A program made the position numbers and the translations under genes. Shown piece by piece: positions 4,382-34,209 of a DNA stretch of 64,000 bases (the stretch's first letter is position 1; each line of letters starts with the position of its first letter). The stretch is from Euzebya pacifica. Its GTDB lineage: Bacteria > Actinomycetota > Nitriliruptoria > Euzebyales > Euzebyaceae. The stretch lies in NCBI RefSeq assembly GCF_003344865.1, contig NZ_CP031165.1, positions 992,001-1,056,000 on the forward strand. The letters run 5' to 3'. The notes under the pieces were generated by a model. It was not told the origin of the DNA and did not search any database. It was given only the letters and a program-made list of their open reading frames with translations.

Positions 4382-4485
4382 CCCGTTGGCGAGGAGGAGG
4401 GGGAGGAGCGGCAGGTACGATGCGCCCGCTCGGGGTGCCCGTCGTGCGCCCACCCAAGACTCCCCAACAGAGGAAGTGAAGCCTC

Positions 4486-13121: not shown

Positions 13122-13244
13122 CTACTTCGCGAGCAGCGCGGTCACCAGACCGAACACTCGGCCGAGGGCCGGGCGTCGGATCTCGTACTTGACCGGACGG
13201 GTGGGCCTGCCACCAGCAACGCGTTCGTCAATCATCACGGACAC
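13122..13244 (-). CDS. Putative 40-aa microprotein downstream of GASWA peptide gene
   Basis: A short frame starting at GTG 13244 (two further in-frame starts at 13238 and 13235), with AGAAGG 7 nt upstream. It encodes a 40-residue basic peptide: MIDERV near the start, an Arg/Pro-rich middle (GGRPTRPVKYEIRRPALG) and a hydrophobic end (VFGLVTALLAK). About three quarters of its third codon positions are G or C, as in neighbouring genes, which supports coding. It lies 88 bp downstream of the GASWA-repeat gene on the same strand, probably on the same transcript. No family recognised. It could be a membrane-associated small protein or a helper of the repeat peptide; function is unknown. Confidence 0.45.
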   Translation of the reverse strand: MSVMIDERVAGGRPTRPVKYEIRRPALGRVFGLVTALLAK

Positions 13245-13298
13245 GGGTCTGCCTTCTTTCTTGGGTATCGCGAAGTTTTTTTCTAAAGGCGGGTGACC

Positions 13299-13322
13299 GT
13301 CGTGCCGAAGAACCGACACGAC
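13299..13322 (-). other. Intercistronic RNA hairpin in micro-ORF transcript
   Basis: On the minus strand GTCGTGTCG and CGGCACGAC form a 9-bp stem (one G-U pair) with a 6-nt loop between the two micro-ORFs. A run of seven A residues (complement of 13276-13282) lies just beyond. This pocket is notably A+T-rich for the genome. It may set the relative expression of the two peptides; on this strand it is not followed by a U-run. Confidence 0.45.
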
Positions 13323-13332
13323 AGGCAAGTAA

Positions 13333-13428
13333 CTAGGCCCAGGAGGCTCCGGCCCAAGAGGCACCGGCCCAGCTTGCACCGGCCCAAGAAGCTCCAGCCC
13401 AGGATGCGCCATCGGTCTTGCGGGTCAT
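13333..13428 (-). CDS. GASWA pentapeptide-repeat micropeptide (31 aa)
   Basis: ATG 13428 has GAAGGA 8 nt upstream and encodes MTRKTD followed by five consecutive GASWA units and a stop. The units use different synonymous codons (Ser: TCC, TCT, AGC, TCT, TCC; Ala: GCA, GCT, GCA, GCC, GCC), so the protein repeat has been kept while the DNA drifted; this argues strongly for real coding. The pentad matches the G-x-(S/G)-W-x tails of the subtilases at 24.5, 28.5 and 32.6 kb. The frame is open upstream to GTG 13491, and that extension would add a very hydrophobic stretch (VLVLLFVFSFVC) resembling a signal or membrane segment, but without a ribosome-binding site. It is divergent from a membrane EAL protein. 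Function unknown. Confidence 0.7.
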   Translation of the reverse strand: MTRKTDGASWAGASWAGASWAGASWAGASWA

Positions 13429-13587
13429 TGCAGTTCCTTCCAGAGAACAGACAAACGAAAACACGAATAACAGGACGAGCACACTCGGCACGTTGCAGCG
13501 TGTCGGGTGCGCCTGCCTGTAGGTTAAGTTCTCCGCGCGGCCACGTAAACCTCTTGCACGGAGAAAACTCCGCGGAGTAATGACGAC
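13429..13587. promoter_or_regulatory. Divergent promoter region between GASWA gene and EAL gene
   Basis: These 159 bp must drive both the micropeptide gene (minus) and the membrane EAL gene (plus). It holds a T/A-rich stretch near 13445-13475, a TACGTG element (complement of 13542-13547), and two competing dyads next to the EAL gene start: CGGAG-AAAA-CTCCG (13559-13572) and ACTCCGCGGAGT (13567-13578). The latter contains the GGAG Shine-Dalgarno at 13574-13577. Confidence 0.5.
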
Positions 13588-16077
13588 ATGCAGCGCTTCC
13601 CCTCGCCCGCTGACCGCCTCACGGCGGTCCTTGGGCTGATTGCGACTGCTGCGTGGGCCATCGTGACGCCCACATACGAGGCTGTGTACACCGGCATCCT
13701 CCCGGTGGTCCTCCTCTTTGCGGCTTTTATGGTGGCGGAGTGGTTCCCACTGGGGCTCGAGTTCCGCGGGCAGTCCTTCCACAGCACGCTGTCGGGACTG
13801 GTGATCGTGCTCGGTGTCATCGTCGTCGGCCCCGTCCCGACACTGGCTGCTCGAGTGGTGGCTGGACATGTGGCGCTTCGGTACCGATGGGCAAACAGCT
13901 GGGAGAAGCTGCGCTTCAACGCGGCAGCGCATGCGGCGGAGGTATGGGTCCAAGCGACGGTATTCGCAGTCGTTGCGGGCGATGCCGCCCTGCTCGAGGC
14001 GCGAACGGTGGTGGCGATCCTCGTCGCGATTGCCGTCTCCGAGGCGTTCTCGACTGCCATGGTCCTCCTCGTCATTCGTCTGACGGTCGGACGAATTCGC
14101 CTGGACCAGCTGAAGCCGACGCTCGTTGCGATCCTGGCCACGCTTGCGATCTCCAGTGCCGCTGCCACGGTGGCGTCGAGGCTCGTGGAGGCGGAGACAG
14201 TGACCGCCGTGGCGTTCGCCGGAGTCCTCGGCCTGCTGATCGTGACCAACCGCTCGCGCCACGCCCTGTCGCAGAAGCACCGGTCGGTCGCCTCCCTCTA
14301 TACCTTCATGGAGGGGATCCAGGGGCAGACCAGCGTCCAGCACCTGCTGGCCAACGTCCTGGAGGAAGCGGCTGAGGTCACCGGCGCCAAGCAGACCGGC
14401 ATCGTGCTGATCACCGGCGACGTGGCGGTGCGGCTGGACTCCCTCGGCGCGGGGCTGCTGTCGTCCGAAGAGCTCCCGATGAGCGAGGCCAAGCGCCTGG
14501 TCGCCGGGGCGGTGGACGGCCTGACCGTCGACGCCGGGGGCCGCAACCCCTACCTCCACATCGTCGGGCCACTCACCGAGCAGCTCCTCCTGGCCAGCTT
14601 CGCCCACGAGTCCGTCGAGGGTGCCCTGGTCCTCCAGGGACGGCGCGGCACGATGCCGAAGTTCGACACCGACGACGTGGCGCTGGCCTGTGCGCTGGCC
14701 CGCCATGCAGGGGTCGCGGTGGCCACGTCCCGCCTGGTCGACCAGCTTCGCTCCCGGTCCGTCGAGCTGGAACGGTCCGCGCTGCGGGACCCGGCGACGC
14801 AGCTGCTGAACTTCGAGGGCCTCGTCGATGCGATCCCGCAGCTGGATGCCGGCACCGTCATGGTCGCCGAGCTGCTGGACCTGGAGATGATCGACGCCGC
14901 GTTCGGCCACACCGTCTCCGTCGAGGTCGCCCAGTCCACCGCCGACCGCCTGCGGCGGTTCGGCGAGGAGCACGGCTTCACCGTTGGCCGCATCGGTCCC
15001 GACCGCTTCGCCGCGGTCATGCCGGGCATGGAGCACCGGCTCGACGCACGCGACGCGATCAACAGCCTTCGCCAGTCACTTCGTGGGCCCATCACCCGAA
15101 CCCACCTGCAGCTCGAAGCGCGGTTCTCCTTCGCCGCCGCCTCGGCACCTCGCCACGGCACCGACGTCGGTGAGCTGCTCCGCCGGGCCACCAACGCCCT
15201 CGTCGAGCACGGTGCCGACGGGTCGGCCGAGATCGCCTGGTTCACCAGCGACCTCGACAGCGCCGCAACCGAGCGCCTGGAGCTGGCCAGCGACCTGCGA
15301 CGCGCCATCGACAACGACGGCCTGTCGATCGCCTACCAGCCCAAGGTCAACCTGAAGACCGGGCAGATCGACGGCGTCGAGGCGCTCGCCCGCTGGGCCC
15401 ACCCAACCCGTGGCTACGTCTCACCCGCACAGTTCATCGACGTCGCCGAGCGCACCGGCCTGATCCGTCCGCTGACCCTCTGGGTCGTCGACAGCGCCAT
15501 CCGGCAGGCCGCCGAGTGGGAGAAGACCGGCTGCGACATCTCCGTGGCCGTCAACCTGTCCACCGTGGTGATGCAGGAGGAGTCGCTGGCCCGCCACATC
15601 ATCGACCGGTGCCGCGAGCACGAGGTCCCCGGCCACCGGCTGACGCTGGAGATCACCGAGTCCCAGATGATGGGCGACCTCGAGCGCAGCAGCGGCATCC
15701 TGGCGCTGTTCGACGCCGCGGGCATGCGGGTGTCCATCGACGACTTCGGGACCGGCTACTCCTCGCTGGCCCAGCTGAAGGGGCTGCCCGTCGACGAGGT
15801 CAAGATCGACCGTGGTTTCGTGACCCACCTGGCCAGGGACGCCGACGACCGGGCCATCACCGAGGCGATCCTGAAGATGGCCAAGAGCCTGCGACTGCAC
15901 GTGGTGGCCGAGGGGATCGAGGACCAGACGTCGCTGGACCTGCTGACCGCCATGGGCTGCGACAGCGGACAGGGATTCCACCTGCACCGCCCCATGAGCG
16001 CCGAGGCTGTCGGCGTCCTGCTCCGGCGCCAGGACCCGAGCATCCCCACCGTCCTCCCGCTGCGGCACGCCCGGTAG
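13588..16077 (+). CDS. Membrane GAF-GGDEF(degenerate)-EAL c-di-GMP phosphodiesterase
   Basis: 829 residues. Residues 1-220 form about seven hydrophobic helices carrying the pattern SFHSTLSG...VVGPVP...WEKLRFNAAAHAAEV, also found in the three GGDEF-EAL proteins at 22-32 kb. A GAF-like region follows (about 235-385), then a GGDEF domain whose signature reads GPDRF (470-474), so cyclase activity is unlikely. The EAL domain is complete: GVEALARW (EAL 598-600), [33 protein letters not shown] and GQGF. Expected activity: hydrolysis of c-di-GMP to pGpG at the inner face of the membrane, perhaps with the dead GGDEF as a GTP sensor. ATG 13588 lies 10 nt after GGAG. It is divergent from the GASWA micropeptide gene. 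Confidence 0.9.
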   Translation: MQRFPSPADRLTAVLGLIATAAWAIVTPTYEAVYTGILPVVLLFAAFMVAEWFPLGLEFRGQSFHSTLSGLVIVLGVIVVGPVPTLAARVVAGHVALRYRWANSWEKLRFNAAAHAAEVWVQATVFAVVAGDAALLEARTVVAILVAIAVSEAFSTAMVLLVIRLTVGRIRLDQLKPTLVAILATLAISSAAATVASRLVEAETVTAVAFAGVLGLLIVTNRSRHALSQKHRSVASLYTFMEGIQGQTSVQHLLANVLEEAAEVTGAKQTGIVLITGDVAVRLDSLGAGLLSSEELPMSEAKRLVAGAVDGLTVDAGGRNPYLHIVGPLTEQLLLASFAHESVEGALVLQGRRGTMPKFDTDDVALACALARHAGVAVATSRLVDQLRSRSVELERSALRDPATQLLNFEGLVDAIPQLDAGTVMVAELLDLEMIDAAFGHTVSVEVAQSTADRLRRFGEEHGFTVGRIGPDRFAAVMPGMEHRLDARDAINSLRQSLRGPITRTHLQLEARFSFAAASAPRHGTDVGELLRRATNALVEHGADGSAEIAWFTSDLDSAATERLELASDLRRAIDNDGLSIAYQPKVNLKTGQIDGVEALARWAHPTRGYVSPAQFIDVAERTGLIRPLTLWVVDSAIRQAAEWEKTGCDISVAVNLSTVVMQEESLARHIIDRCREHEVPGHRLTLEITESQMMGDLERSSGILALFDAAGMRVSIDDFGTGYSSLAQLKGLPVDEVKIDRGFVTHLARDADDRAITEAILKMAKSLRLHVVAEGIEDQTSLDLLTAMGCDSGQGFHLHRPMSAEAVGVLLRRQDPSIPTVLPLRHAR

Positions 16078-19931: not shown

Positions 19932-21887
19932 ATGAGCGAGTCCAGCCTCGAGAACCTGTACCACGAAGGCCGTGCCTTCCCGCCACCGGACGCGTTCGCC
20001 GCGCAGGCCAACGTCTCGGACGACGGGGTGTACGAGCAGGCGGCCAAGGATCCGGAGGCGTGGTGGGCCCAGCAGGCCGAGCACCTTCGGTGGACGACGC
20101 CGTGGGAGCAGGTGCTCGAATGGAACCCCCCGCACGCGAAGTGGTTCGTCGGTGGACAGCTCAACATCGCCGACAACTGCCTGGATCGGCACCTGGAGGC
20201 CGGTCGGGGCGACCGGGTGGCGTACTACTGGGAGGGTGAGCCGGCCGACGAGCGGCGCACGATCACCTACGCGGAGCTGCACGAGGAGGTGTGCCGGTTC
20301 GCCAACGTGCTGAAGGCGCGAGGGGTGGGCAAGGGCGATCGGGTGGCGATCTACCTGCCCATGATCCCCGAGCTGCCGGTGGCGATGCTCGCGTGCGCCC
20401 GGATCGGGGCGATCCACTCGGTGGTGTTCGCCGGGTTCTCCTCCCAGGCGCTCGCCGATCGCATCGATGATGCCGATGCCCGGCTGGTCATCACCGCCGA
20501 CGGCGCCAACCGGCGTGGCAACACCATCGGGTTGAAGGAGGCGGTGGACGCCGGCATCGAGCGGGCCGAGTCCGACCGGGTGTCGACCGTGATCGTGGTC
20601 AACCGCACGGGTACCGACGTCGACATGGTCGATGGTCGTGACGTGTGGTGGCACGACGTGATGGACGGCGCGTCGGCGGACTGCCCGGCCGAACCGATGG
20701 ATGCCGAGGACGTCCTGTACATCCTCTACACCTCCGGTACGACGGGGAAGCCGAAGGGGATCGTGCACACCACCGGTGGCTACCTGACCCAGACCACTGC
20801 CACGCATCGGCTGACGTTCGACCTCAAGCCCGAGACCGATGTGTACTGGTGTGCCGCCGACATCGGGTGGGTGACCGGCCACAGCTACATCGTCTACGCG
20901 CCGCTGGCCAACGGGGCCACGTCGGTGATGTACGAGGGCACCCCCGACTTCCCCGACAAGGACCGGTTCTGGGACATCGTGGACCGCTACGACGTCTCGA
21001 TCCTCTACACCGCGCCGACCGCCATCCGGGCGTTCATGAAGTGGGGCACGGAGTATCCCGAGCGGCACGACCTGACGTCGCTGCGGGTGCTCGGCACCGT
21101 CGGTGAGCCGATCAACCCCGAGGCGTGGATGTGGTACCACCGTCACATCGGTGGCGAGTCCGCCCCGATCGTGGACACGTGGTGGCAGACCGAGACAGGC
21201 GGCCACATGATCACCCCGCTGCCCGGCATCACCCACGCCCGGCCCGGATCGGCCATGACCGCCTTCCCCGGCATCGACGCCCGCGTCGTGGACATCGAGG
21301 GCAAGGAGGTCGGCAACGGCGAGGGTGGCTACCTGGTCATCGCCAAGCCGTGGCCGTCGATGCTGCGGACCATCTGGGGCGACGACCAGCGGTACCGGGA
21401 CACCTACTGGTCACGGTTCGGGCCCGATACCTACTTCGCCGGCGACGGCGCCAAGCTCGACGAGGACGGCAACATCTGGCTGCTCGGCCGCGTCGACGAC
21501 GTCATGAACATCTCGGGGCACCGGCTGTCCACCACCGAGGTCGAGTCGGCGCTGGTCGACCATCCTTCCGTGGCCGAGGCCGCGGTGGTGGGTCGCGCCG
21601 ACGACCTCACTGGTCAGGCCATCAGCGCCTTCGTGACGCTCCGCGGCACCCACGAGCCATCGGAAGACCTCGAGGCCGAGCTGAAGGCGCACGTCGCGGA
21701 GGTCATCGGGAAGATCGCCCGTCCCGCCGAGATCTACTTCACCCCGGACCTGCCGAAGACCCGCTCCGGCAAGATCATGCGCCGACTGCTCAAGCAGATC
21801 TCGGAGGGCTCCGACCTCGGCGACGCCACCACGCTCGCCAATCCCGACATCGTCAACGCCCTGCAGCAGGCCGCCAGGGGCCGGTGA
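19932..21887 (+). CDS. acs: Acetyl-CoA synthetase
   Basis: AMP-forming acetate-CoA ligase, 651 residues, activating acetate to acetyl-AMP and then acetyl-CoA. Core motifs: [21 protein letters not shown] (P-loop of the ANL superfamily), [40 protein letters not shown], the hinge Asp region [23 protein letters not shown], and [15 protein letters not shown] with the catalytic Lys near the C-terminus, the usual site of acetylation control. ATG 19932 is preceded by AAGGG. The last 35 bp overlap the 3' end of the minus-strand GGDEF-EAL gene. Confidence 0.98.
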
Positions 21888-24375
21888 CGCCTGTCCCGCG
21901 TCGAGCGGGGTCCGCGACGACGTGAAGGGTGCGGTGGCCGTGGTGCCGCCGCACCCACTCCACGACGGCCTCGGGTCCCATCGGCCGGGCGATCCCGAAT
22001 CCCTGGCCGCGGGTGCATCCCATGTCGCGGAGCGTCTGCTGGACCTCATCGGTCTCGATGCCCTCCGCGACGATGTCGAAGCCCATCTCGGTGCAGAGCC
22101 GGATGATCCCGGCGACCAGGGGCAACGATCCGGTCCCGTCCAGCATCGGCAGGACGAAGGACTTGTCGATCTTGACCTCGTCGACCGGCAGCTGGGCCAG
22201 GTAGGCCAGCGAGGAGTATCCGGTGCCGAAGTCGTCGATCGCGGTTCGGACGCCCAGTCGCTGGAGGCGGGCCAGGACCTCCAGGGTGCGCTGGGGGTCA
22301 CCGATGACGCTGGACTCGGTCAGCTCGAGGGTCAGCCGGTCGGCGCGGACGCCGTGGGCGTCCAGCGTGGTGGCGACCAGGCGAGGCAGGCCCGTGTCCA
22401 GCAGCGAGGTCGCGCTGACGTTCACCGAGACGGGCAGGTCCTCACCGGCGTCGAGCCACCGGCGGTGCCACGACAGCGCCGAGTCGAGCACACGATGGGT
22501 GAGGTCGGTGATCAGGCCGGACTGCTCGGCGACACGGACGAACTCCTCGGGACTGACCGGCCCGAGGTCCGGATGGGTCCAGCGGGACAGGGCTTCCATG
22601 GTGACCACGCGGTCGGTCTGCAGGTCGACGAGCGGCTGGAACACCAGGTTGATGTCGCCGTTGCCGAGCGCTGATCGGAAACCGGAGCTGATGGCGAGCT
22701 GGCGCATCGCCCGGCCTCCGGCCGCCGCACCGAAGACGGCCACGCCGCCGCCCCGCGCCTTCGCCTCGTACATGGCGAGGTCGGCATGGGTCATCAGCTC
22801 GTCGGCATCCCGGCCGAGGTGGGGATACGTGGCGATGCCGACGCTGCAGCCGACCTGCAGGGTGTAGGACCCCAGCTGCACAGGCGCCCCGATCGCGTCA
22901 CGGATGCGCCCTGCCACATCGCGGGCGCTGACCTCGCCACCGTCGATGATCACCGCGAACTCGTCGCCGCCCAGGCGGCAGACCAGCCGGGCCTCGTCCA
23001 CGAACGGGGTCAGGCGCTGGCCGATCACGCCCAGGACCTTGTCTCCTGCGGCGTGGCCGAGGGCGTCGTTGATCTCCTTGAAGTTGTCGAGGTCGATCAG
23101 CAGCACGGCGAACGTGGTGTCCTCGACCAGGGCCGCCTCGATGGCGATGATCAGGGCCGCGCGGTTGGCCAGCCCGGTCAGCGGGTCATGGGTGGCCTCG
23201 AACGTCGCCTGCTCGGCCTGTGCTCGCAGCGCTGCACCGCGATGGGCGTTGGCCAGCGCCACGGCGGCGTGGTTGGCCAGCATGCCGACGGTCTGACGGT
23301 CGGCTTCACCCGTTGGGGACCTGCGGCTGTAGCCGACGACGAGCCAGCTGTCGGTCGCCGCGTCGACGGGCGCGGCGATCGTGCCGCCGGGGGCGTGACG
23401 TGCGCCCGGACCCGCTGCGCGGATGGCCGCGAGCCGCGCTTCCTCCAGCATCGTCCAGCTGTCGGCATCGGCGCCGTACCACGTCCGCCTGCCCGTGTCG
23501 GGGTCGGCCAGGCTGATCGCCGCGGCGGGGGCGTCCAGGATGCGACGGGTCGCGGTCGCCATCAGCATCGCGGTCTCCTCGGGCGTGGACTCCCCGGTGA
23601 TGCCCTGGGTGATGGCGATCAGGCTGGACTGCAGGTCCTGCGCCTCGACGAGCTGGACGTGCGAGCGATAGGCCAGCATCAGGACCCCGAGCACCACCGC
23701 GGGGGCCCACAGCAGCGTCGGCTCGGTCCGGTACAGCACCACCCCGACGGTGGTTGCCGCCGCGGTGGCCAGCGAGGGGCCGAGGCCGTCACGCAGTCCG
23801 CGCAGGGCCAGGCCCCGGACGAGCCGTCCCTGTGTGGCCGAGATGGCCCCGACCTTGGCGACCGCACCGGTCACGGCCACGGACACGGCGATCGCGACGA
23901 TGGCCAACGACGCCCGGGGTCCTCCGGTGATCGAGGACGCGCCGAGCAGATCCAGGACGTTCAGGACGATCAGCGTCTCGATCCACAGGTAGCCCACGTT
24001 GTAGGCGGTCTTGTAGGGCTCCTGGCGCCTGAGCACCTGCAGGCCGACGATGCCGCCCACGAGGCGTGCCCCCACGAGCAGGAGCGGCGACACCGCGAAG
24101 GCCCCGAGCACGAGCGGAACCTCCGACAGCGTCAGCCGGTGGGAGACGTGGCCGACGCGCGCAGACAACGACCACCGCTCCGTGACGGCGACCAGTGCGG
24201 TCAGCAGCAGCACCCGGAGGACGTCGCCGCCCGTGATCGGCGACCTCGGCAGGACCAGCGTGCCCACCGTGCTGATCACGGCGACCGCGGCGGTCAGCAT
24301 CCACACGCGACGAACCGCCCCGGGGGGCGGTCCGTTCGATGTGGTGGCCTGCGGCATGTCGGCGGTGTGATCCAT
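21853..24375 (-). CDS. Membrane GAF-GGDEF-EAL protein, copy 1 (pairs with subtilase 24458-25963)
   Basis: 840 residues from ATG 24375; the frame is open to GTG 24432. About seven helices (22-240) carry [14 protein letters not shown] and [15 protein letters not shown], the pattern shared with the other three paralogues here. A GAF-like region (about 250-380) precedes an intact GGDEF (469-473, [11 protein letters not shown]) without an RxxD inhibitory site, then an intact EAL (594-596, [10 protein letters not shown]) with [33 protein letters not shown] and GQGF. Both diguanylate cyclase and phosphodiesterase activities are therefore possible. It follows the subtilase gene by 82 bp on the same strand. 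Its 3' end overlaps acs by 35 bp. Confidence 0.92.
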
Positions 24376-24457
24376 GAAGAAGGTGACCCCCGTCCCCCTG
24401 TGGATCGGCGCACCCCCGAGTGACCTGAGCACACCCTCGGTGAGGACGGCTACTCAT

Positions 24458-25963
24458 TCAGTCCCATTGGGTGCCGTCCCAGCCCCAGCCGTCCCAGCCC
24501 CAGCCGTCCCAGCCCCAGCCGTCCCAGCCCCAGCCGTCCCAGCCCCAGCCGTCCCAGCCCCAACCGTCCCAGCCCCAGCCGTCCCAGCCCCAGCCGTCCC
24601 AGGTCGTCCCGGTCCACTCCGCGGTGTCCCAACCCCAGCCGTCCCAGCCCCAACCGGTCCACTCGGTGTTGTTCCAGGTGCCGCCGTCCCACGACGTCAG
24701 CGCCGTGGCCTCGGCGGCCCACACGACGCTGTCGAAGGGCTGGCCGAAGATGTCCTGCTCGCCGGTCAGCGGACTGTCGCCGAGGAGGTGGTAGGAGCCA
24801 CGGGCACCCTCCAGGGTGCCGGTCCCCGAGCTCAGGAGGTGCACCTGGGCACCGATGACGTCGGAGGTACGGGCCTGGGTCAGGTTCAGCATGCCGGGGG
24901 CCTCACCCGTCCCGTCCTGCCGCAGGACCTTGCTGCCGTCGACGATGCGTGCCTTGACGTCGTCGGGCGTCAACGACGGGTCGTCCTCGAGCATCAACGC
25001 CACGCCGGCGCCGACGACAGCAGCGGCCTGCGACGTGCCGTTGCCGCGGAACAGGTCCCCGGGCCGCTGGGCCCCCGGGAACGTGGTGTCCAGGTAGCCG
25101 CCGGGCACACGGGCGGAGACCATGCCGACGCCGGGGGCAAGCACGTCCGGTCCGCGAGCGGGGGTGCCGGCCGGGGAGAAGGTGGCCACGGTGTCGTCGG
25201 ACACCCGTCGCGTGCCCTGCGTGTCCACGGCGCCGACGGCGATCACCCACGGGTTGGTGGCCGGGTTCACCAGGGAGTCCCGGACCTGCCCGTCGTTGCC
25301 CGCCGCGGTGACGACGGTGATGCCGTTGTGCCATGCGGTCTCGACGGCGTGGGACAGGGGATCCACCAACGGGTCCTGCGTGGAGTCGGTGCCGTAGGCC
25401 AGGACGAGGACACGGATGTTGTGCTCCTCGCGGTGCTGCACGACCCAGTCGATGCCGGCGATGACCTGTGAGACGTCGACCGCACCGTTGTACGCACCGA
25501 CCTTGACCGACAGCAGCGTGGCATCCGGGGCCAGTCCGGGGGCGTCCAGGCGGTCGGAGGTGATGATGCCGGCAAGGTGTGTGCCGTGGCCGTACACGTC
25601 GTAGTGCTGGGCCTGCTCCGCCTGGGAGTCCAGCGAGATGTCGGGGCCGTGGACGACATCGGTCAGGCCGACGACTGGGGCAACACCCGTGTCGATCAGG
25701 GCGATGCCGATCCCCCGTCCGGTGAGGCCTCGCTCGTGCAGGCGGGTTGCCCGGACGGCCTCGGCGACATGGTCCAGCGTCGCGGTTGTGCCCTCCGCCT
25801 CCCACGAGACCGCCTCGTCAGCGCTCGGCGGGCTGGGCAGCTCGCTGGAGCGGGCGGGCAGGTCGTCGGCGTGGGCGGGGAGCGGGATGTTCCCCACCAC
25901 GCTGGTGAGGAGCACGACGAGGAGCAGGCGGACGAGGCGGGGGCGGGATGCGGCGGTCATCAC
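24458..25963 (-). CDS. Secreted S8 subtilase with GWGWD-repeat C-terminus, copy 1
   Basis: 501 residues. A signal peptide (MMTAASRPRLVRLLLVVLL..., cleavage near AHA/DD at 32) is followed by the S8 catalytic domain: Asp91 in ALIDTGV, His126 in YGHGTHLAG, oxyanion Asn223 in AAGND, Ser311 in GNGTSQAAA. The usual GTSMAxP signature is changed to GTSQAAA. A linker with the DIFGQPFDSVVW motif leads into a Trp-rich tail (424-501): two GWGWD units, a spacer, then eight perfect GWGWD units (457-496) and GTQWD. No sortase or LPXTG signal. The gene leads into the GGDEF-EAL gene downstream. Substrate unknown; the tail may act in anchoring, binding or signalling. Confidence 0.92.
   Translation of the reverse strand: MMTAASRPRLVRLLLVVLLTSVVGNIPLPAHADDLPARSSELPSPPSADEAVSWEAEGTTATLDHVAEAVRATRLHERGLTGRGIGIALIDTGVAPVVGLTDVVHGPDISLDSQAEQAQHYDVYGHGTHLAGIITSDRLDAPGLAPDATLLSVKVGAYNGAVDVSQVIAGIDWVVQHREEHNIRVLVLAYGTDSTQDPLVDPLSHAVETAWHNGITVVTAAGNDGQVRDSLVNPATNPWVIAVGAVDTQGTRRVSDDTVATFSPAGTPARGPDVLAPGVGMVSARVPGGYLDTTFPGAQRPGDLFRGNGTSQAAAVVGAGVALMLEDDPSLTPDDVKARIVDGSKVLRQDGTGEAPGMLNLTQARTSDVIGAQVHLLSSGTGTLEGARGSYHLLGDSPLTGEQDIFGQPFDSVVWAAEATALTSWDGGTWNNTEWTGWGWDGWGWDTAEWTGTTWDGWGWDGWGWDGWGWDGWGWDGWGWDGWGWDGWGWDGWGWDGTQWD
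24476..24595 (-). repeat. 15-bp tandem repeat (8 units) encoding GWGWD
   Basis: Eight almost identical 15-bp units (CCGTCCCAGCCCCAG on the + strand) lie in frame within the subtilase gene, with one variant base pair. Two further units lie near 24626-24655. The near-identity at DNA level suggests recent expansion, unlike the codon-diverged repeats of the other copies; unit number may vary between strains by slippage. Confidence 0.9.
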
Positions 25964-26053: not shown

Positions 26054-28522
26054 CTAAGAGTTATTTGCCTCTACGCAAAGTGAGTCTCGAGCCTCGGTGG
26101 GGGACCGCCCCCGCACCCAGTCGAGGATTCCGGCGCCGTCGAGTGGTCGGGAGATGAAGTACCCCTGACCGGAGGCGCAGCCCATGTCCTGCAGGGCATC
26201 GAGGACGTCCTGGGTCTCGATGCCCTCGGCGACCACGCTGAAGCCGAGTCGATCGCACAGGCCGATGATGCCTGCCACGAGCCCCCGCGCCCGAGGGTCC
26301 CCGTCCATCGGCAGCACGAACGACTTGTCGATCTTGACGCAGTCGATGGGCAGGTTGCGCAGGTACGACAGCGACGAGTACCCCGTCCCGAAGTCGTCGA
26401 CCGACAGCCGGACGCCGAGGCCGGAGAGACGATCCAGCGCAGCGAGGGTCCGGGTCGGGTCGGTGATCACGCTGTTCTCGGTCAGCTCCAGCGTCAGCCG
26501 GTTCGCCGGCAGGCCGTGGGTGGCCAGATGGCGCTGGACCAGCCGGGGAAGTGCGGCGTCGAGCAACGATCGTGGGCTGAGGTTCACGGCGACCTGGAGG
26601 TCCAGTCCCGCGGCCGCCCACAGGCGTTGCCACTGCAGGGTCGTGTCGAGCACGAAGTGGGTGAGCTCCGTGATCAGGCCCGTCTGCTCGGCCACCGCGA
26701 TGAACTCGTCGGGGCTCACCGCGCCCAGCTCCGGGTGGGTCCACCGGGTGAGGGCCTCCACGCCGGTCACGGCGGACGTCGCCACGTCGATGATCGGCTG
26801 GAACACGACCGTCAGCTGCTGTTCCTGCAGCGCGTGGCGGAAGGCGCTGCTGATCTCCAGCTGGCGCATCGCCCGTCCGCTGGAGTCCGTGCCGAAGACG
26901 GCGACGCCTCCGCCGAGCGCCTTGGCCTCGTACATCGCGAGGTCGGCGTTCTTGAGCAGCTCGCCGACGTCGGTGCCGTGGTCGGGGTACAGGGCCAGGC
27001 CGACGCTGCTGCCGACCAGGAGGTCGTAGGAGCTGATGTGCACCTCGCGCCCGATCTCGCCGTTGAGCTGCTGCCCGAGCGCCACGCAGGCCGCTTGGTC
27101 GCCCGTGGCCACGACCGCGAACTCGTCACCCCCGAGTCGGGACAGCAGGCGGGCGCCCTCGGTGACCGGACCGAGCCGCTTGGCCAGCTCGGTGAGCACC
27201 TCGTCGCCGGCTGCGTGGCCGAGCGCGTCGTTGATCTGCTTGAAGTCGTTGAGGTCCACCAGGAGGACACCGAAGGGCTGATCCGCCTCGATCGCCGTCT
27301 GGATGGCCGATCGCAGGGCCAACCTGTTGGGCAGGCCCGTGAGGGAGTCGTGCCGTGCCTGGTGGTGGGCCTCCGCCGCCTGTCGACGAAGCTTCGTCCC
27401 GCGTTCGGCGTTGGCGAGCACGACCGCGGCGTGGTTGCCGACCATGTGGACGGCGCTGCGGTCGTGGGGCCGGATGGACGCCCGGTCCATGCCCACCGCA
27501 AGCCAGCCCGTCGGAAGGGCGGCGAACACGGTCTCGCGGGCCGAGCCGACACAGCAGCCGGCCTCGTCGTGTCGGCCGTCCAGCGCGAGGTCGTGGTCGA
27601 GCTTGCTCGCCTCCGCCGACCCGACGCCGATCCAGCTCGGGTCGTGGCCGTCGTCGAGACCGTCCAGCCGGATCGCGACGAGCTCGGCGGACAGCAGCGA
27701 CCGAGTCGCCTCGACGAGATGGGTCGCCGTGGCGGTGACGTCCTCCTCGCCGGTGACACTGCGCGTGAAGGTCAGCAGGCCGCCCTGGATGGCGTTGGCC
27801 TGCACCAGTCCGAGCCCCGAGCGGTGGGCCGCCACGATCGCCGTGGTGACCGCGAGCGGCCCCCACAGCAGCAGCGGCGAGACGCCCCACAACGCCAGTC
27901 CCATGACCGCTGCACCACTCGCCACCAAGGACGCGAAGAGCCCCTCCCGCACGGTGGAGACCACCAACGTGCCGGGCGGGGGTCGGCCGGCGGTGATGCG
28001 CATCACCGCCGCCATCGCCAGTCCGCCACCGGTCGCGACGGCGACGGCCACGCTGGTGCCGAGGATCGTGAGGCGCAACCCGTCGTGGAGCCCGTCCGGC
28101 GCGACCGCGGCCGCCAGGCCGATCGCGACAAGGGTCTCGGCGGTGAGGTGGACGATGTTGAACGCGGTCTTGTGGCCGGCCTGTCGACGGAAGACCTTCA
28201 ACCCGACGAACGCGCCGGTGATGCGGGCGAGCAGCAGGACCCCCGGTGAGACGAGCATCAGTCCGACCACGAGCGGAACCTCTCCCAGGGTCAGGTTGTG
28301 GGTCTGCTCACCGATGCGGACGGTCGTGCTGGCCCAGCGTTCGCTGGCGGCGACGGTGGCTGCCAGGCACAGTCCGAGCAGCATCTCGGTCACGCCCACG
28401 GGGGGAAGCGGCATCTGGCTGATCGGCAGGGCGAGCAGCACCGCGGCCAGGGCCGAGGCGATCCAGACGCGCTGTTCCGGCCGATCGACGATCGGGGTCA
28501 GCACGTGTGGGGTCGCGGTCAT
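26054..28522 (-). CDS. Membrane GAF-GGDEF-EAL protein, copy 2 (pairs with subtilase 28526-30013)
   Basis: 822 residues. The N-terminal multi-helix domain carries THNLTLGEVPLVVG and HKTAFNIVHLTAETL, matching copies 1 and 3. A GAF-like stretch precedes an intact GGDEF ([15 protein letters not shown], no RxxD I-site) and an intact EAL ([55 protein letters not shown]). Predicted dual diguanylate cyclase/phosphodiesterase located in the membrane. ATG 28522 lies 3 nt after the subtilase stop (TAG GGC ATG), so the pair is surely co-transcribed and probably translationally coupled. Confidence 0.93.
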   Translation of the reverse strand: MTATPHVLTPIVDRPEQRVWIASALAAVLLALPISQMPLPPVGVTEMLLGLCLAATVAASERWASTTVRIGEQTHNLTLGEVPLVVGLMLVSPGVLLLARITGAFVGLKVFRRQAGHKTAFNIVHLTAETLVAIGLAAAVAPDGLHDGLRLTILGTSVAVAVATGGGLAMAAVMRITAGRPPPGTLVVSTVREGLFASLVASGAAVMGLALWGVSPLLLWGPLAVTTAIVAAHRSGLGLVQANAIQGGLLTFTRSVTGEEDVTATATHLVEATRSLLSAELVAIRLDGLDDGHDPSWIGVGSAEASKLDHDLALDGRHDEAGCCVGSARETVFAALPTGWLAVGMDRASIRPHDRSAVHMVGNHAAVVLANAERGTKLRRQAAEAHHQARHDSLTGLPNRLALRSAIQTAIEADQPFGVLLVDLNDFKQINDALGHAAGDEVLTELAKRLGPVTEGARLLSRLGGDEFAVVATGDQAACVALGQQLNGEIGREVHISSYDLLVGSSVGLALYPDHGTDVGELLKNADLAMYEAKALGGGVAVFGTDSSGRAMRQLEISSAFRHALQEQQLTVVFQPIIDVATSAVTGVEALTRWTHPELGAVSPDEFIAVAEQTGLITELTHFVLDTTLQWQRLWAAAGLDLQVAVNLSPRSLLDAALPRLVQRHLATHGLPANRLTLELTENSVITDPTRTLAALDRLSGLGVRLSVDDFGTGYSSLSYLRNLPIDCVKIDKSFVLPMDGDPRARGLVAGIIGLCDRLGFSVVAEGIETQDVLDALQDMGCASGQGYFISRPLDGAGILDWVRGRSPTEARDSLCVEANNS

Positions 28523-28525
28523 GCC

Positions 28526-30013
28526 CTAGCGCCACTCAGCGGCGTTCCACGACCAGCCGTTCCAGGACCACCCGTTCCAGGACCAGCCGTTCCACGACCA
28601 CCCGTTCCAGGACCAGCCGCTCCACGAGCGGCCCTGCCAGGTCTGGCCGGGCCAGGCGTGGTCGATCCGACCCGACGACGTCCAGCGGGATCCGTTCCAT
28701 CGACCGTTGCTCCAGGACGTCCCGGCTTCCGCCGCGGCGGCCCATCGGGCGGAGTCGAACGGGCGTCCGTGGATGTCCCGTTCCCCGTCCAGCCAGGCGC
28801 CGTCGACCCCGATGTGCATGGATCCACGGGCCAGCTCCAACGACCCGTCTCCGCGGCTGTGCGGGAACTGCTGGGTGGCTCGCCGTGGCCGAAGGCTGCG
28901 GGCAGCCTCGACGTCGATCATGTTCGTGCTGCTGAGCAGGCTCGACACGCCCTGCGAGCTGCGCACGAGGAGCTGCTTCACGTCGTCGGGTGACAGCTCG
29001 GGACGATCCTGGAGCAACAGGGCGGCAGCGCTGGCCACGACCATGGTGGCCTGGGACGTACCGTTGCCGCGGAACCGTCCGTCCGGCTGCCTCGCCTGCG
29101 GGTAGGCGGTGTCCAGGTATCCGCCGGGCGCCTGCAGGGAGACGATGCCGACTCCGGGTGCGAAGACATCGGGGCGTCGCTGGCGGGTGCCGGTCGGTGA
29201 GAACTCCGGGACCTCGTCGTCCAGCCGCGCGCTCGTGCCCTGCGTGTCGACGGCGCCGACGGCGATGACGTAGGGGTTGAGGGCAGGGTTGACCACGCCG
29301 TCCCGTACGGCGCCGTGGTTGCCAGCTGCAACGACGACCACGATCCCGTGGCGCCAGGCCACCTCGATGGCGTGGGACAGGGGATCGTGGATCGGGTCCT
29401 GCGTCCCGTCGGTGCCGTAGGCGAGCGCCAGCACACGGATGTTGTGCTCGTGGCGGTGCTGGACGACCCAGTCGATCGCGGCGATGGTCTGGGACACGTC
29501 CACGGCGCCGTTGGTGGCGCCGACCTTCACCGACACGAGGGTGGCGTCCGATGCCAGCCCGGGGACGTCGGGACGGTCCGAGGCGAGGATGCCCGCCAGA
29601 TGGGTGCCGTGGCCGTAGAGGTCGCGGGCCCAGGCCTCCTCGAACTGTGAGTCCAGCGACAGGTCCGGTCCGCGCACCACGTCCTCGAGGCCGCGGACGT
29701 CGGCGACGCCGGTGTCGATGAGGGCGACCCCGATGCCCGCGCCGGTGAGGCCACGTCGGTGGAGGTTATCGGCACCGACCGCCGTACCGACGTGGTGCAG
29801 CTCGGCGTTGGTGCCCTCCTGCTCCCACGAAACGGACTCCGCCGTGATGTCCAGCAGGGCGAGCGTGTCGCCGAGGAGTCCCCCGAGGTCCAGCGGCAGC
29901 GCGGACCGGCTCGTGTGCCGCGGAGCCTCCGCCGCGACGGGTGTCGTGCCCAGCAGCAGCACGGCCGGCAGGAGCAACGTCGCGAGCTTGTGACTGAGCG
30001 TGATTTTGGGCAT
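28526..30013 (-). CDS. Secreted S8 subtilase with GWSWN-repeat C-terminus, copy 2
   Basis: 495 residues from ATG 30013, chosen because a proper signal peptide (MPKITLSHKLATLLLPAVLLLG, cleavage near VAAEA) starts there although the frame is open to 30103. Catalytic Asp100 (ALIDTGV), His135 (YGHGTHLAG), oxyanion Asn232 (AAGNH) and Ser320 (GNGTSQATM) are present. After the DIHGRPFDSARW linker comes a Trp-rich tail: WSNGRWNGSRW, PGQTWQGRSW, five GWSWN units (466-490) and AAEWR. It is closely similar to copies 1 and 3 across the protease domain (for example YGTDGTQDP, WVVQHR, VIAVGAVDTQGT), so the copies arose by duplication. Substrate unknown. Confidence 0.92.
   Translation of the reverse strand: MPKITLSHKLATLLLPAVLLLGTTPVAAEAPRHTSRSALPLDLGGLLGDTLALLDITAESVSWEQEGTNAELHHVGTAVGADNLHRRGLTGAGIGVALIDTGVADVRGLEDVVRGPDLSLDSQFEEAWARDLYGHGTHLAGILASDRPDVPGLASDATLVSVKVGATNGAVDVSQTIAAIDWVVQHRHEHNIRVLALAYGTDGTQDPIHDPLSHAIEVAWRHGIVVVVAAGNHGAVRDGVVNPALNPYVIAVGAVDTQGTSARLDDEVPEFSPTGTRQRRPDVFAPGVGIVSLQAPGGYLDTAYPQARQPDGRFRGNGTSQATMVVASAAALLLQDRPELSPDDVKQLLVRSSQGVSSLLSSTNMIDVEAARSLRPRRATQQFPHSRGDGSLELARGSMHIGVDGAWLDGERDIHGRPFDSARWAAAAEAGTSWSNGRWNGSRWTSSGRIDHAWPGQTWQGRSWSGWSWNGWSWNGWSWNGWSWNGWSWNAAEWR
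28544..28618 (-). repeat. Five 15-bp units encoding GWSWN
   Basis: In-frame pentapeptide repeats at the 3' end of subtilase copy 2. Codons alternate (GGC/GGG for Gly, TCC/TCG for Ser), so the amino-acid repeat is conserved beyond DNA identity. Confidence 0.85.
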
Positions 30014-30177
30014 GCCTACTGATCGGCATCCGCGAGGAGGGGCTGGAGGGCCGTTCGCGCCGCGGACCGGAAATGGCCCGTGGCGACTACGGTCCATGGT
30101 CACACCGGGCTGCTGGAGGGGTCGACGGCGTCAGGAACTACGTAGCGTGACCATACGTATCGGTGTGTGGTGGCGCT
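30014..30177 (-). promoter_or_regulatory. Promoter region of subtilase copy 2 with TACGTA palindromes
   Basis: These 164 bp between subtilase copy 2 and the stop of GGDEF-EAL copy 3 hold two perfect 8-bp palindromes centred on TACGTA: CTACGTAG (30138-30145) and ATACGTAT (30153-30160), 15 bp apart. GATGCCGATC lies just before the start and recurs reversed before copy 3. No ORF is supported here. A regulator binding site is inferred. Confidence 0.4.
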
Positions 30178-32616
30178 TCACAGGACGATGCTGAGATGCC
30201 GGTCGTCTCGCCAGCGCGCCTGCCAGTCCAGCAGGTCCGCGCCGTCCATCGGCCGGGCGATGTGGAAGCCCTGCCCACGGGAGCAGCCCATGTCGGTCAG
30301 CTTGCGCTGCACCGTCGCGTTCTCGATGCCCTCGCCAACGAGCTCGAAGCCCATCTCGCGGCAGAGGTTGATGATCCCCGACAGCAGCGGGGGCGTGTGC
30401 AGCTCCTCGACCAGCGGGATCACGAAGGACTTGTCGATCTTCACCTCGTCGACGGGCAGCTCCCGCAGGTAGGCCAGGCTGGAGTACCCGGTGCCGAAGT
30501 CGTCGACGGCGAGCCGCACGCCGAGGGCCCGCAACCGGCGGAGAGTCGCGATGGTGATGCTCGGGTCGCTGACGACGCTGGACTCGGTGAGCTCCAGGGT
30601 CAGGCGGTTGGCTGGCACGCGGTGGCGGGACAGGGCGCTGCAGACCATGTCGGCCAGCTGGTCGTCGACCAGGGAGCGGGCGCTGATGTTGACCGCGACC
30701 TGCAGGTCGATACCCGCGGCGGCCCACAGCCGTTGCCACTGCAGCGAGGCGTGGAGGACATGGCGGGTCAGGTCGGTCACCATGCCGTTCTGCTCGGCAG
30801 CGGCGATGAACTCGTCGGGCCGGATGACCCCGAGCTCCGGGTGGCTCCAGCGGGTCAGGGCCTCGACGGCGGCGACCCGCCCGCTCTCGAGGTCGATGAT
30901 CGGCTGGAACACGACGTCGATCTCGCCTCGGTCCAGCGCCATGCGGAAGCCGCTGCTGACCTTGAGGTCCCGCAGCGCCCGTCCGCCGGACTCGATGCCG
31001 TACACATGCGTCCCGCAGCCCCGCTGCTTCGCGCCGTACATCGCAAGCTCCGCGTGCTTGAGCAGCGTCGACGGGTCCGATCCGTGCTCGGGGGCCAGGG
31101 CAACCCCGATGCTGGCGCTCGTGGCGACGTCGTAGCCGTCGACGCTGGTGGTCCGACCGATCAGCAGGTGCAGCCGTTCGGCGACGAGGGTGCATCGGCT
31201 GACATCGCCCTCGACCACGGCCGCGAACTCGTCACCACCGAGTCGTGCGAACACGCGCACGTCCTCGGCGATGGGGGCGACCCGGCGGGTGAGCTCGGTC
31301 AGGACCTGGTCGCCGGCGTGGTGCCCCAGCGCGTCGTTGACCTTCTTGAAGTCGTTGAGGTCCAGCAGCAGCACACCGAAGGCACGGCCGCGCAGGTCCG
31401 CCTCGACGATCGCGGTCAACAACGACTGGCGGTTGGGAAGGCCGGTCAGGGCATCGTGGTTGGCGCGGTGCCGCGCCTCCGCTGCTTGGTCCCGCAGCGA
31501 GTCCGCGGACCGGATGTTCTGCACCACGACGGTGGCGTGCGTGGCGAGCATGCCGACGGTGCGGCGGTCGTGGGGACGGATGCTGTCGCGCTCCAGCGAC
31601 ACCGCGATCCAGCCGGTGTCGAGCGGCACGAAGAGCGTTTCTTCGTCTGCCGGGGGCACTGTCGCCCCGTCGTTGCCTTCGTGCTCGAGCAGCAGGTCCA
31701 GCTCGGCCGCGGTGGCCGCGTCCACCCCGACCCATGCAGCGGACTCGTCGCTGGACGTCGGCAGCCGGACCGCGACATGGCGTGGGGACAGCAGCGTGCG
31801 CGTCTCCTGCACGATGGTGTCGATCGTGGCGTCGAGGTCGCCTGCTGCCGCCACCGCCTTGGTGAAGGTCAGCAGGCGGGCGTGCGAGGCGTTGGCCTCC
31901 ACCAGCTCCAACCACGAACGGTAGGCCACGGTCAGCACCACCGACAGCATGGCCGGGGCGAGGACGAGCACGGGCGACACGGCCCACAGCGCCACCGCGG
32001 CGGCGCCCACGAGCGCCGACGTGATCGCGGGGACGAGGCCGGTCCAGACCGCACGCCGTGCCGGCCCGAGGACCAGGTGGCCCGCAGTGCTGGAGACCGC
32101 CACGGTCATGAACACCACGCCGACGATGTTGACGACGAGGCCGACGACCGCGGCAGCGACCAGGAGCTCGACGTGAACCCCGAGGGCGAGCCCGGTCACC
32201 ACGGCGGTGAGGCCGGCGGCGATCAGCGTCTCGGTCCAGGTCTGCGTGACGTTGAGGGCCGTCTTGTAGCCCTCCTGGCGTCGCAGGACCTGGTTGGCCA
32301 CGACCATGCCGGCGATGCGGGCACCCACGAGGAGGGGGACGGGCAGCAGGAACAGGCCGATCAGCAGCGGAGCCTCGCTGAGCGTCAGGGAGTGGCTCTG
32401 CGTCCCGGTGCGAACGGTGATGGAGACCCACCGTTCGCAGACCGCCACCACGGCAGCGAGCGCGGCGGCCTGCCACAGCTGGGTCCACGATGCAGACCGT
32501 GGCCCCCACAGCGCCGTCGCGGCCAGCAGGGGCGCGGCCACGGGGGCGCAGCCCAGCCAGATGCGTTGGGCGGCCCGCGGGGTGGTCGCGCGGCCGGCAC
32601 CTGCCGTCATGCTCAT
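30178..32616 (-). CDS. Membrane GAF-GGDEF-EAL protein, copy 3 (pairs with subtilase 32613-34097)
   Basis: 812 residues from ATG 32616, which overlaps the subtilase stop (ATGA); the longer ORF upstream only reads the Trp-repeat DNA in another frame. The multi-helix N-terminus has SHSLTLSEAPLLIG and YKTALNVTQTWTETL. A GAF-like region, an intact GGDEF ([12 protein letters not shown], no I-site) and an intact EAL ([52 protein letters not shown]) follow. The AEGIE motif reads GEGIE here, keeping the Glu. Potential dual c-di-GMP synthase/hydrolase coupled to its subtilase partner. Confidence 0.93.
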   Translation of the reverse strand: MSMTAGAGRATTPRAAQRIWLGCAPVAAPLLAATALWGPRSASWTQLWQAAALAAVVAVCERWVSITVRTGTQSHSLTLSEAPLLIGLFLLPVPLLVGARIAGMVVANQVLRRQEGYKTALNVTQTWTETLIAAGLTAVVTGLALGVHVELLVAAAVVGLVVNIVGVVFMTVAVSSTAGHLVLGPARRAVWTGLVPAITSALVGAAAVALWAVSPVLVLAPAMLSVVLTVAYRSWLELVEANASHARLLTFTKAVAAAGDLDATIDTIVQETRTLLSPRHVAVRLPTSSDESAAWVGVDAATAAELDLLLEHEGNDGATVPPADEETLFVPLDTGWIAVSLERDSIRPHDRRTVGMLATHATVVVQNIRSADSLRDQAAEARHRANHDALTGLPNRQSLLTAIVEADLRGRAFGVLLLDLNDFKKVNDALGHHAGDQVLTELTRRVAPIAEDVRVFARLGGDEFAAVVEGDVSRCTLVAERLHLLIGRTTSVDGYDVATSASIGVALAPEHGSDPSTLLKHAELAMYGAKQRGCGTHVYGIESGGRALRDLKVSSGFRMALDRGEIDVVFQPIIDLESGRVAAVEALTRWSHPELGVIRPDEFIAAAEQNGMVTDLTRHVLHASLQWQRLWAAAGIDLQVAVNISARSLVDDQLADMVCSALSRHRVPANRLTLELTESSVVSDPSITIATLRRLRALGVRLAVDDFGTGYSSLAYLRELPVDEVKIDKSFVIPLVEELHTPPLLSGIINLCREMGFELVGEGIENATVQRKLTDMGCSRGQGFHIARPMDGADLLDWQARWRDDRHLSIVL

Positions 32617-34097
32617 TCCCAGCCCTGGGCGTGCCACGACCAGCCGTGCCAGCTCCACCCGTGCCAGCTCCACCCATGCCACGACCAGCCGTGCCACGAC
32701 CAGCCGTTCCAGGTGGACCCGTCCCACGGGACGGCGACGAGGTGGCCGTCAGCCCAGTCGGTGCCCGCCCAGCGCGTGCCGTTCCAGACGCCGTCCTGCC
32801 AGCTGGTGCCCGCAGCTGCCGCCTGTGCCCATGCGCTGCTGTCGAACGGCTGGCCGAACACGTCGACCTCACCGGCCAGCAGGTCGTCGGCCTCTCCGAG
32901 GTGGGTGCTGCCACGGGCCGCCTCCAGGGACCCGGTCCCGGTCGATGCCGGGTGGTCCTGCCCGGTCAGCACCGCGGGGGTGGCCACGGCGCGGGGCAGG
33001 TCGATCACGCCCTGGCCGGTCAGCATGTTGTCCAGACGGGTGGCGCTGCGGGCCAGCACCGCCTTGACGTCGTCGGGGGACAGGTCCGGGCGGGCCTGCA
33101 GCAACAGCGCGGCGGCTCCGCCGACGATCGCCGCGGCCTGGGAGCTGCCGTTGCCGCGGAAGAGCTGGCCATCACGCCGTGCGGCTGGGTAGGTCTGGTC
33201 GAGGTAGCCGCCGGGTGCACCGAGGGACTCGATGCCCACCCCGGGGGCGAACACGTCGGGGCGTCGCTCGGCCGTACCGGGGGCCGAGAACGCCGGCACG
33301 CGGTCGTCCAGCGTCGTCGTCGTGGCCCGGGTGTCGACCGCGCCGACGGCGATCACGTTGGGGTTCGTGGCCGGGTTGACCACCGGGTCGCTGGACTCGC
33401 CGTGGTTGCCGACGGCCACCACGACGGCGATACCGTGGTCCCAGGCGACCTCGACGGCGTGCGACAGGGGGTCCAGCTGCGGGTCCTGGGTCCCGTCGGT
33501 GCCGTAGGCCAGGACCAGGACGCGGATGTCGTGCTCGTCACGGTGCTGCACGACCCAGTCGATGGCGGCGACCGTCTGCGAGACATCGACCGCCCCGTTG
33601 CCGGCCCCGACCTTGAGCGACAGCAGCGAGGCGTCGGGGGCGATGCCGCGGGCGTCGGGACGGTCCGATGCGATCAGGCCGGCGAGGTGGGTGCCGTGGC
33701 CGTAGTCGTCGACGCCGTAGTGACCCTCGACCGGTGCGTCGAGCGACAGGTCCGGGCCGCGGAGGGTGTCTTCCAGGCCGGCCACGTCGGCGACGCCGGT
33801 GTCGATGATGGCGATGCCGACGCCCGCTCCGGTGATGCCGTCGGTGTGGAGGTCGTCTGCGCCGATCGCCTCGGCCACGTGGGCCATGGTTGCCGTCGGG
33901 CCGCCGCCGCCCCAGGCCAGCTCCTCCGCGGAGAGGTCGAGGCCGAGGGAGATGTCGAGCCCCTCCAGGTCCACCGCCAGGTCGACCCCGGGCAGCGAGA
34001 TGCTGATCCCCAGGCCGATCGCTGCAGCTGGTCCGATCGACGTCGCGAGCATGGCGACGGTGACGACGGAGACGACGAGGATGCGCAGACGGCTCAT
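32613..34097 (-). CDS. Secreted S8 subtilase with GWSWH-repeat C-terminus, copy 3
   Basis: 494 residues from ATG 34097, where a signal peptide (MSRLRILVVSVVTVAMLATSIG, cleavage near AAA/IG) begins. The mature N-terminus has a short repetitive hydrophobic region (ISLPGVDLAVDLEGLDISLGLDLS) not seen in copy 1. Catalytic Asp99 (AIIDTGV), His134 (YGHGTHLAG), Asn231 (AVGNH) and Ser319 (GNGSSQAAA, with Ser replacing Thr of GTS). After VFGQPFDSSAW the tail has scattered W-x-G pentads and five GWSWH units (465-489), ending AQGWE. The stop overlaps the GGDEF-EAL copy 3 start by 4 bp. It is the first gene of the three-pair array. Confidence 0.92.
   Translation of the reverse strand: MSRLRILVVSVVTVAMLATSIGPAAAIGLGISISLPGVDLAVDLEGLDISLGLDLSAEELAWGGGGPTATMAHVAEAIGADDLHTDGITGAGVGIAIIDTGVADVAGLEDTLRGPDLSLDAPVEGHYGVDDYGHGTHLAGLIASDRPDARGIAPDASLLSLKVGAGNGAVDVSQTVAAIDWVVQHRDEHDIRVLVLAYGTDGTQDPQLDPLSHAVEVAWDHGIAVVVAVGNHGESSDPVVNPATNPNVIAVGAVDTRATTTTLDDRVPAFSAPGTAERRPDVFAPGVGIESLGAPGGYLDQTYPAARRDGQLFRGNGSSQAAAIVGGAAALLLQARPDLSPDDVKAVLARSATRLDNMLTGQGVIDLPRAVATPAVLTGQDHPASTGTGSLEAARGSTHLGEADDLLAGEVDVFGQPFDSSAWAQAAAAGTSWQDGVWNGTRWAGTDWADGHLVAVPWDGSTWNGWSWHGWSWHGWSWHGWSWHGWSWHAQGWE
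32631..32705 (-). repeat. Five 15-bp units encoding GWSWH
   Basis: In-frame pentads at the end of subtilase copy 3. Ser is TCG or AGC, Gly GGC or GGG, His CAC or CAT, so protein-level selection maintains the repeat. Confidence 0.85.
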
Positions 34098-34132
34098 GGG
34101 ATGCCGATCGGGTCGGGGAGGGGGCGTCCTGA

Positions 34133-34144
34133 GCGTACGTACGC
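34133..34144. promoter_or_regulatory. GCGTACGTACGC palindrome before subtilase copy 3
   Basis: A perfect 12-bp palindrome 36 bp upstream of the array's first gene, inside the 112-bp gap to the FetB-like gene. It contains the TACGTA core seen before subtilase copy 2. It could be the operator for the whole array; inferred from symmetry and position. Confidence 0.4.
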
Positions 34145-34209
34145 ACATCTCACCCCGACATCACCAGTTAGGGCCATTCCTCGTGATCCGATGTGACTAC
34201 CCCCAGTGG

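Follow-up and report, generated by a model that had tools for sequence, protein, structure and literature searches.

Small peptide genes located beside the gene of a membrane receptor are known from the agr and ComQXPA systems, where the sensor and the signal diverge together while the rest of the system is conserved. Control of a protease by c-di-GMP is known from the LapD/LapG system. Receptors with the fold of the ECF S components have also been described, with outputs of the GGDEF, EAL and kinase types (PMC11109136). In the S-component fold, substrates are bound from the outer side, and the ligand of one such receptor, BtsS, is a small molecule, pyruvate (PMC11109136). In the open-access literature we found no paper on Trp-repeat arrays.

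Here we describe a locus at which a gene for a Trp-repeat micropeptide adjoins a gene for a membrane sensor protein with GGDEF and EAL domains, the two being divergent with their 5' ends facing. The locus and three related units lie in a window of 64,000 nucleotides (the whole stretch of DNA that was analysed); their features are listed in Table 1. We found that Trp-repeat proteins are tied to one type of membrane sensor across several bacterial phyla and, because of this tie, the repeat is likely to be the signal for the sensor.

Table 1. Features of the micropeptide locus and of the related subtilase units, in window coordinates; G002 is the closest of the three other species of the genus.
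Feature	Position	Strand	Remark
Second micropeptide gene, GTG start, 40 aa, MSVMIDERVAGGRPTRPVKYEIRRPALGRVFGLVTALLAK	13122..13244	-	six-member family
Spacer between the two micropeptide genes, with inverted repeat (GTCGTGTCG...CGGCACGAC)	13245..13332	-	89% identical in G002
Trp-repeat micropeptide gene	13333..13428	-	31 aa + stop, MTRKTD(GASWA)x5; translation and G002 ortholog
Shared divergent intergenic region with palindrome CTCCGCGGAG	13429..13587	.	93% identical in G002
Shine-Dalgarno GGAAGG of the Trp-repeat micropeptide gene	13436..13441	-	sequence; identical in G002
Membrane sensor-GGDEF-EAL protein, 829 aa	13588..16077	+	degenerate GGDEF (RIGPDRF), intact EAL motifs
N-terminal sensor domain, aa 1-241	13588..14310	+	predicted ECF S-component fold; high-divergence island vs G002
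Sensor-GGDEF-EAL protein paired with the GWGWD subtilase	21853..24432	-	
Subtilase with GWGWD array tail	24458..25963	-	related unit
Sensor-GGDEF-EAL protein paired with the GWSWN subtilase	26054..28522	-	
Subtilase with GWSWN array tail	28526..30103	-	related unit
Sensor-GGDEF-EAL protein paired with the GWSWH subtilase	30178..32727	-	
Subtilase with GWSWH array tail	32613..34148	-	related unit

A preliminary description of this DNA had reported a 31-residue ORF made of MTRKTD and five GASWA units, preceded by a Shine-Dalgarno sequence, and had argued from synonymous variation among the unit codons that the peptide is selected. Both points are borne out. The ORF (13428..13333, minus strand) translates to MTRKTDGASWAGASWAGASWAGASWAGASWA*, and 7 nt separate the end of the GGAAGG element from the ATG. 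All five GASWA units differ at synonymous sites, with serine coded by TCC, TCT and AGC. The comparison with the G002 ortholog gave dN of 0.075 and dS of 0.635 (dN/dS ~0.12, from few sites). Judged by these features, the ORF is a genuine small gene under selection and is presumably translated. A GTG-started, signal-like extension of the peptide (VPSVLVLLFVFSFVCSLEGTA) was considered and rejected, as it has no Shine-Dalgarno sequence and is interrupted in G002 by an indel with frameshift and a TGA codon. Neither micropeptide of the locus had a Pfam match, the Trp-repeat one (P0001) being searched at E up to 5; for the latter there was also no match in NCBIfam. Repeat families of Pfam were matched neither by the Trp-repeat micropeptide (E up to 5) nor by the tails of the subtilases (E up to 0.001).

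For the comparison within the genus we used four genomes, the source genome (6.37 Mb) and those of three other species. Conservation of the small ORF beside EAL genes had been named beforehand as one of the points on which the proposal should stand or fall; it was found at six loci, in all four genomes. Each of the six has a Trp-repeat micropeptide and a second micropeptide beside an orthologous or paralogous EAL gene, with low dN/dS. At the orthologous locus of G002 the Trp peptide is MTRKTD(GATWA)x6, and the second peptide is almost identical. The source genome also has a paralogous locus, which codes for a 77-residue peptide of GINWA units, and the ortholog of this peptide in G002 has GVNWA units (the G002 contig ends inside this array). 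The Trp peptides of the remaining two species are MEKLGTTPQASPDGWSWTVSSLDGWSWTVTSLDGWSWT (G001) and MNKLGTSWGITDGTSWG... (G003), with a G-x-S-W core every 10 and 8 residues, respectively. The Trp motif across the micropeptides is G-x-[S/T/N]-W, and the spacing of 5 is not universal. None of the six Trp-repeat micropeptides has a Sec signal peptide, nor was a signal peptide found on either micropeptide at any of the six loci.

The order of the two small genes is reversed at the GINWA and GVNWA orthologous loci, thus the two genes stay together through rearrangement. The EAL proteins linked to micropeptides make up one clade (support 100/100), which suggests a single event in which a subtilase-borne array turned into a free peptide, the direction of this change being unrooted. 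All five micropeptide-linked EAL proteins that were checked combine degenerate GGDEF motifs with intact EAL motifs.

The second micropeptide gene, missing from the preliminary description, lies just downstream of the Trp-repeat ORF on the same strand. Its product is basic, has an amphipathic end and shows the family motif D-E-[RS]-[VI]-x-G-G-R-P-x-R, of which the core D-E-x-x-x-G-G-R-P-x-R is invariant at the six loci. The gene is 92.5% identical to its counterpart in G002 (dN 0.036, dS 0.199, dN/dS 0.17-0.18, from few sites). A profile search over 66 genomes of the class returned the six loci at E < 1e-9 and only weak matches elsewhere (E > 0.001). The six members, distributed over four genomes, all adjoin Trp-repeat micropeptides, and the family is restricted to the genus.

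The intergenic region shared by the divergent genes is 93% identical between the two species, yet the adjoining sensor domain reaches no more than about 70% DNA identity. The palindrome in this region is a possible operator. A protein kinase-like gene (Pfam Pkinase) follows the EAL gene directly on the same strand (16147-17517, plus). The annotated neighbours of the micropeptide locus are PurH, a protein kinase, FolD and acetyl-CoA synthetase.

The N-terminal domain of the EAL protein had been described as matching those of three array proteins. The domain indeed aligns, at roughly 23-26% identity, with the EAL proteins encoded beside the three subtilases, but it is absent from the array proteins themselves. 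An AlphaFold2 model of the domain, built from an alignment of 18 relatives, had a mean pLDDT of 88.9. When the model was compared with solved structures by VIA-align, ranks 1-23 were all taken by ECF S components or CbiM/NikM relatives (Z 9.6-13.8, with 151-186 residues aligned), while the next, unrelated entry had Z of 7.5. Foldseek concurred, with TmRibU found at probability 1.00. One member of the sensor family also matches Pfam PF12822 (ECF_trnsprt) at 2.7e-5, and none of the 18 members matches PF07694 (5TMR-LYT) at E up to 5. A profile search of the sequences of solved structures with the sensor alignment gave nothing credible; the S components surfaced by the fold search only. On the basis of the model, the sensor is predicted to be an S-component-fold membrane domain fused to a cytoplasmic output (EAL, GGDEF or kinase-like motifs). 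The EAL domain is, by its intact catalytic motifs, a predicted c-di-GMP phosphodiesterase.

In the sensor alignment (A2) a conserved S-L-S-E-x-P motif was seen between helices 1 and 2, and the NXR motif that marks this place in 5TMR-LYT receptors was not apparent. The most conserved positions among 118 sequences were K107, N111, E51, E70, R102 and G168. With the output in the cytoplasm, the presumed topology of the S-component fold would put these residues at the ends that face outwards, or close to them, in the region of the substrate site of S components.

The usual carrier of an array is an exported S8 subtilase, which has the array as its C-terminal tail and is encoded nearly always upstream of the sensor on the same strand. 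The subtilase array tails are predicted to be disordered (pLDDT about 24-31), in keeping with a flexible tether or with a source of peptides released by cleavage. Most carriers, the subtilase at 24458-25963 among them, have a conserved element GSLEAARG...GExDIFGxPFDxxxWA between the catalytic domain and the array, and this element was modelled at higher confidence than the tail. At ten loci the repeat occurs without a protease: as the micropeptide at six, as a protein of ~140 aa at three, and as a protein of ~81 aa at one. The ~140-residue proteins, found at L158 (about 4.5 kb), L166 (about 4.6 kb) and L170 (about 5.9 kb), have signal peptides, consist nearly entirely of GISWT/GISWV units, and are encoded upstream of genes of the kinase-like type that share the sensor domain. 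The 81-residue protein (L155, about 4200-4440, plus strand) has a signal peptide, ends in EVRWN repeats, and is encoded upstream of a sensor gene with a kinase-like motif. A tandem cluster of the source genome (L053, 3.922-3.938 Mb) has three array genes, with GHQWS, GRSWS and GNQWS tails, and two sensor-EAL genes. We observed that the type of repeat varies between loci of one genome and is uniform inside each locus. The outputs of the sensors vary as well (GGDEF-EAL, GGDEF alone or, by motif, kinase-like).

In the source genome, 56 of 58 exact matches to a four-Trp pentad pattern, forming nine of the 11 clusters, are situated at sensor-domain genes; conversely, an array adjoins all eight strong sensor genes. 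With a fixed criterion (four Trp spaced by 5, no more than 1.5 kb from the start of the sensor), 20 of the 38 loci in a held-out sample of the remaining phylum had an array, compared to none of 24 EAL genes lacking the domain (Fisher 4e-6) and none of 33 positions 3 kb downstream. In the class, where the loci had been looked at beforehand, the same criterion detected an array at 30 of 51. A relaxed criterion proved unspecific (5 of 24 controls), and no result rests on it. An independent scan of named assemblies found the array-sensor pairing at 14 of 23 loci, among them loci in Chloroflexi and Dormibacterota MAGs. By the fixed criterion, about half of the sensor genes at greater distance lack an array; short contigs and shifted spacing account for part of these cases, and some of the sensors perhaps sense something else.

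The preliminary description had proposed that the repeat can work apart from the protease and that the membrane domain is its functional partner. This proposal is supported by the ten protease-free loci, by the difference between the held-out loci and the controls, by the constancy of the domain while both outputs and carriers change, and by the co-divergence of sensor and repeat at this locus. That the partnership consists in ligand binding is what we infer.

The co-divergence is seen in the comparison with G002. The sensor domain has 66% protein identity (34% of residues differ), compared to 96% in the GGDEF-EAL part (4% differ). Synonymous divergence is also higher in the sensor, with dS of 1.19 against 0.36 in the rest of the protein, which points to a segment that is older or was exchanged, rather than to faster protein change alone. 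The other island of divergence is the repeat, where serine is replaced by threonine in every unit and one array has a unit more than the other. No comparable jump was found in three other ortholog pairs, with sensor and rest dS of 0.74 and 0.63, 0.45 and 0.44, and 0.38 and 0.45. In the pair with the GINWA to GVNWA change the sensor had a 3-fold excess of divergence, close to the 2.7-fold observed where the repeat is unchanged. The paired divergence of sensor and repeat, clear at one locus only, is the trace that a specific ligand and its receptor would leave in the sequences.

We propose, with a probability of about 0.6, that the repeat is the ligand, or the precursor of the ligand, of the receptor with the S-component fold, and that the micropeptide acts together with the membrane protein encoded divergently from it. 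The Trp micropeptide would then be a free-standing form of the G-x-[S/T/N]-W-x array with which exported subtilases end in other units. The seven-helix N-terminal domain would act as the receptor, and the repeat would be bound at the outer face of this domain, at the substrate site of S components, either entire or after cleavage into peptides that contain Trp. Binding may set the activity of the cytoplasmic EAL domain, the putative c-di-GMP phosphodiesterase, whose GGDEF partner is degenerate. The second micropeptide would be an obligate companion, probably with a role in the export, maturation or modulation of the signal. The presumed outside-facing position of the binding site and the six micropeptides without a Sec signal, taken together, count against the ligand reading, which has to suppose an export route.

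An unlikely but still appreciable alternative is that the repeat is a module for surface binding or anchoring (to the cell wall, a polysaccharide or the membrane interface) and that the sensor watches the same envelope feature, so that the two are neighbours by joint use and do not bind each other. Aromatic repeats often bind carbohydrate or membranes, and the position of the arrays, at the C termini of exported subtilases and predicted to be disordered, would suit such a role. A generic anchor, however, is expected far from sensors too, while nine of 11 array clusters are at sensors, and a free peptide of 31 aa has nothing to anchor. The locus-specific type of repeat, uniform within each locus, and the joint divergence of sensor and repeat here also argue against anchoring. 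We give a small chance to action of the micropeptide inside the cell, where it might, for instance, regulate the EAL protein at the membrane face or bound to protein, or else regulate the subtilases encoded in the paralogous units. The absence of signal peptides from both micropeptides at all six loci and the basic nature and amphipathic end of the second one point in this direction; against it, the other protease-free repeat proteins do have signal peptides, and substrates of the S-component fold are bound from outside (PMC11109136).

The short length of the peptide, its repeated core and the companion small protein would also be consistent with a precursor of a modified peptide natural product or a bacteriocin. 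We find this improbable, since no modification enzyme or exporter was found beside the gene (the annotated genes around it have housekeeping functions or, in one case, code for a protein kinase) and what is kept across loci is a receptor, not a synthetase. Regularly spaced Trp codons and a hairpin after the ORF are what one would see in a regulatory leader (an attenuator), and a chance reading of DNA repeats could be considered along with it. Such explanations are hardly credible: the Gly and the Ser/Thr/Asn positions are kept as well as Trp, dN/dS is low, the units differ at synonymous sites, and the gene that follows is the second micropeptide only, not a trp gene.

Beyond this locus, the ligand reading can be extended, tentatively and with somewhat less than even confidence, to tandem-repeat Trp peptides as self-made specific signals for S-component-fold receptors in several phyla. 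Each receptor would have its own type of repeat, the receptor and the repeat would be exchanged together as specificity types, and this genus would have reduced the system to two micropeptides and a c-di-GMP phosphodiesterase. Receptors of the S-component fold are widespread and few of their ligands are known, therefore a gene-encoded repeat beside the receptor would provide a predicted ligand sequence for many of them at once, with binding testable by short synthetic peptides. If true, this would be a new class of bacterial peptide signalling that feeds c-di-GMP and histidine kinases. The locus also adds two unannotated families of micropeptides, the second one previously unseen.

Among known systems, the 5TMR-LYT receptors (BtsS, YpdA, KinB; PF07694; PMC11109136) are similar in having a seven-helix domain of the S-component fold, an extra N-terminal helix, and GGDEF, EAL or kinase outputs. 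Unlike them, the sensors described here have no PF07694 match (18 members, E up to 5), and we found no Trp-repeat gene described for 5TMR-LYT receptors. The ECF S components (RibU, FolT, CbiM/NikM) share the fold, and one sensor member matches PF12822; the sensor here, however, is fused to signalling domains and is not part of a transporter. The subtilase units resemble LapD/LapG in that a GGDEF-EAL membrane protein is encoded beside a protease. They differ in their intact EAL motifs, in having no large outer sensor domain, and in a subtilase taking the place of a cysteine protease, while the micropeptide units are free of proteases. As in agr and ComQXPA, a micropeptide gene adjoins a membrane sensor, and sensor and repeat co-diverge, the likeness here being one of linkage and co-divergence only. 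In contrast to those systems, this one has neither a Sec signal nor a known processing enzyme, and it combines a repeated putative ligand with another receptor fold and a c-di-GMP output.
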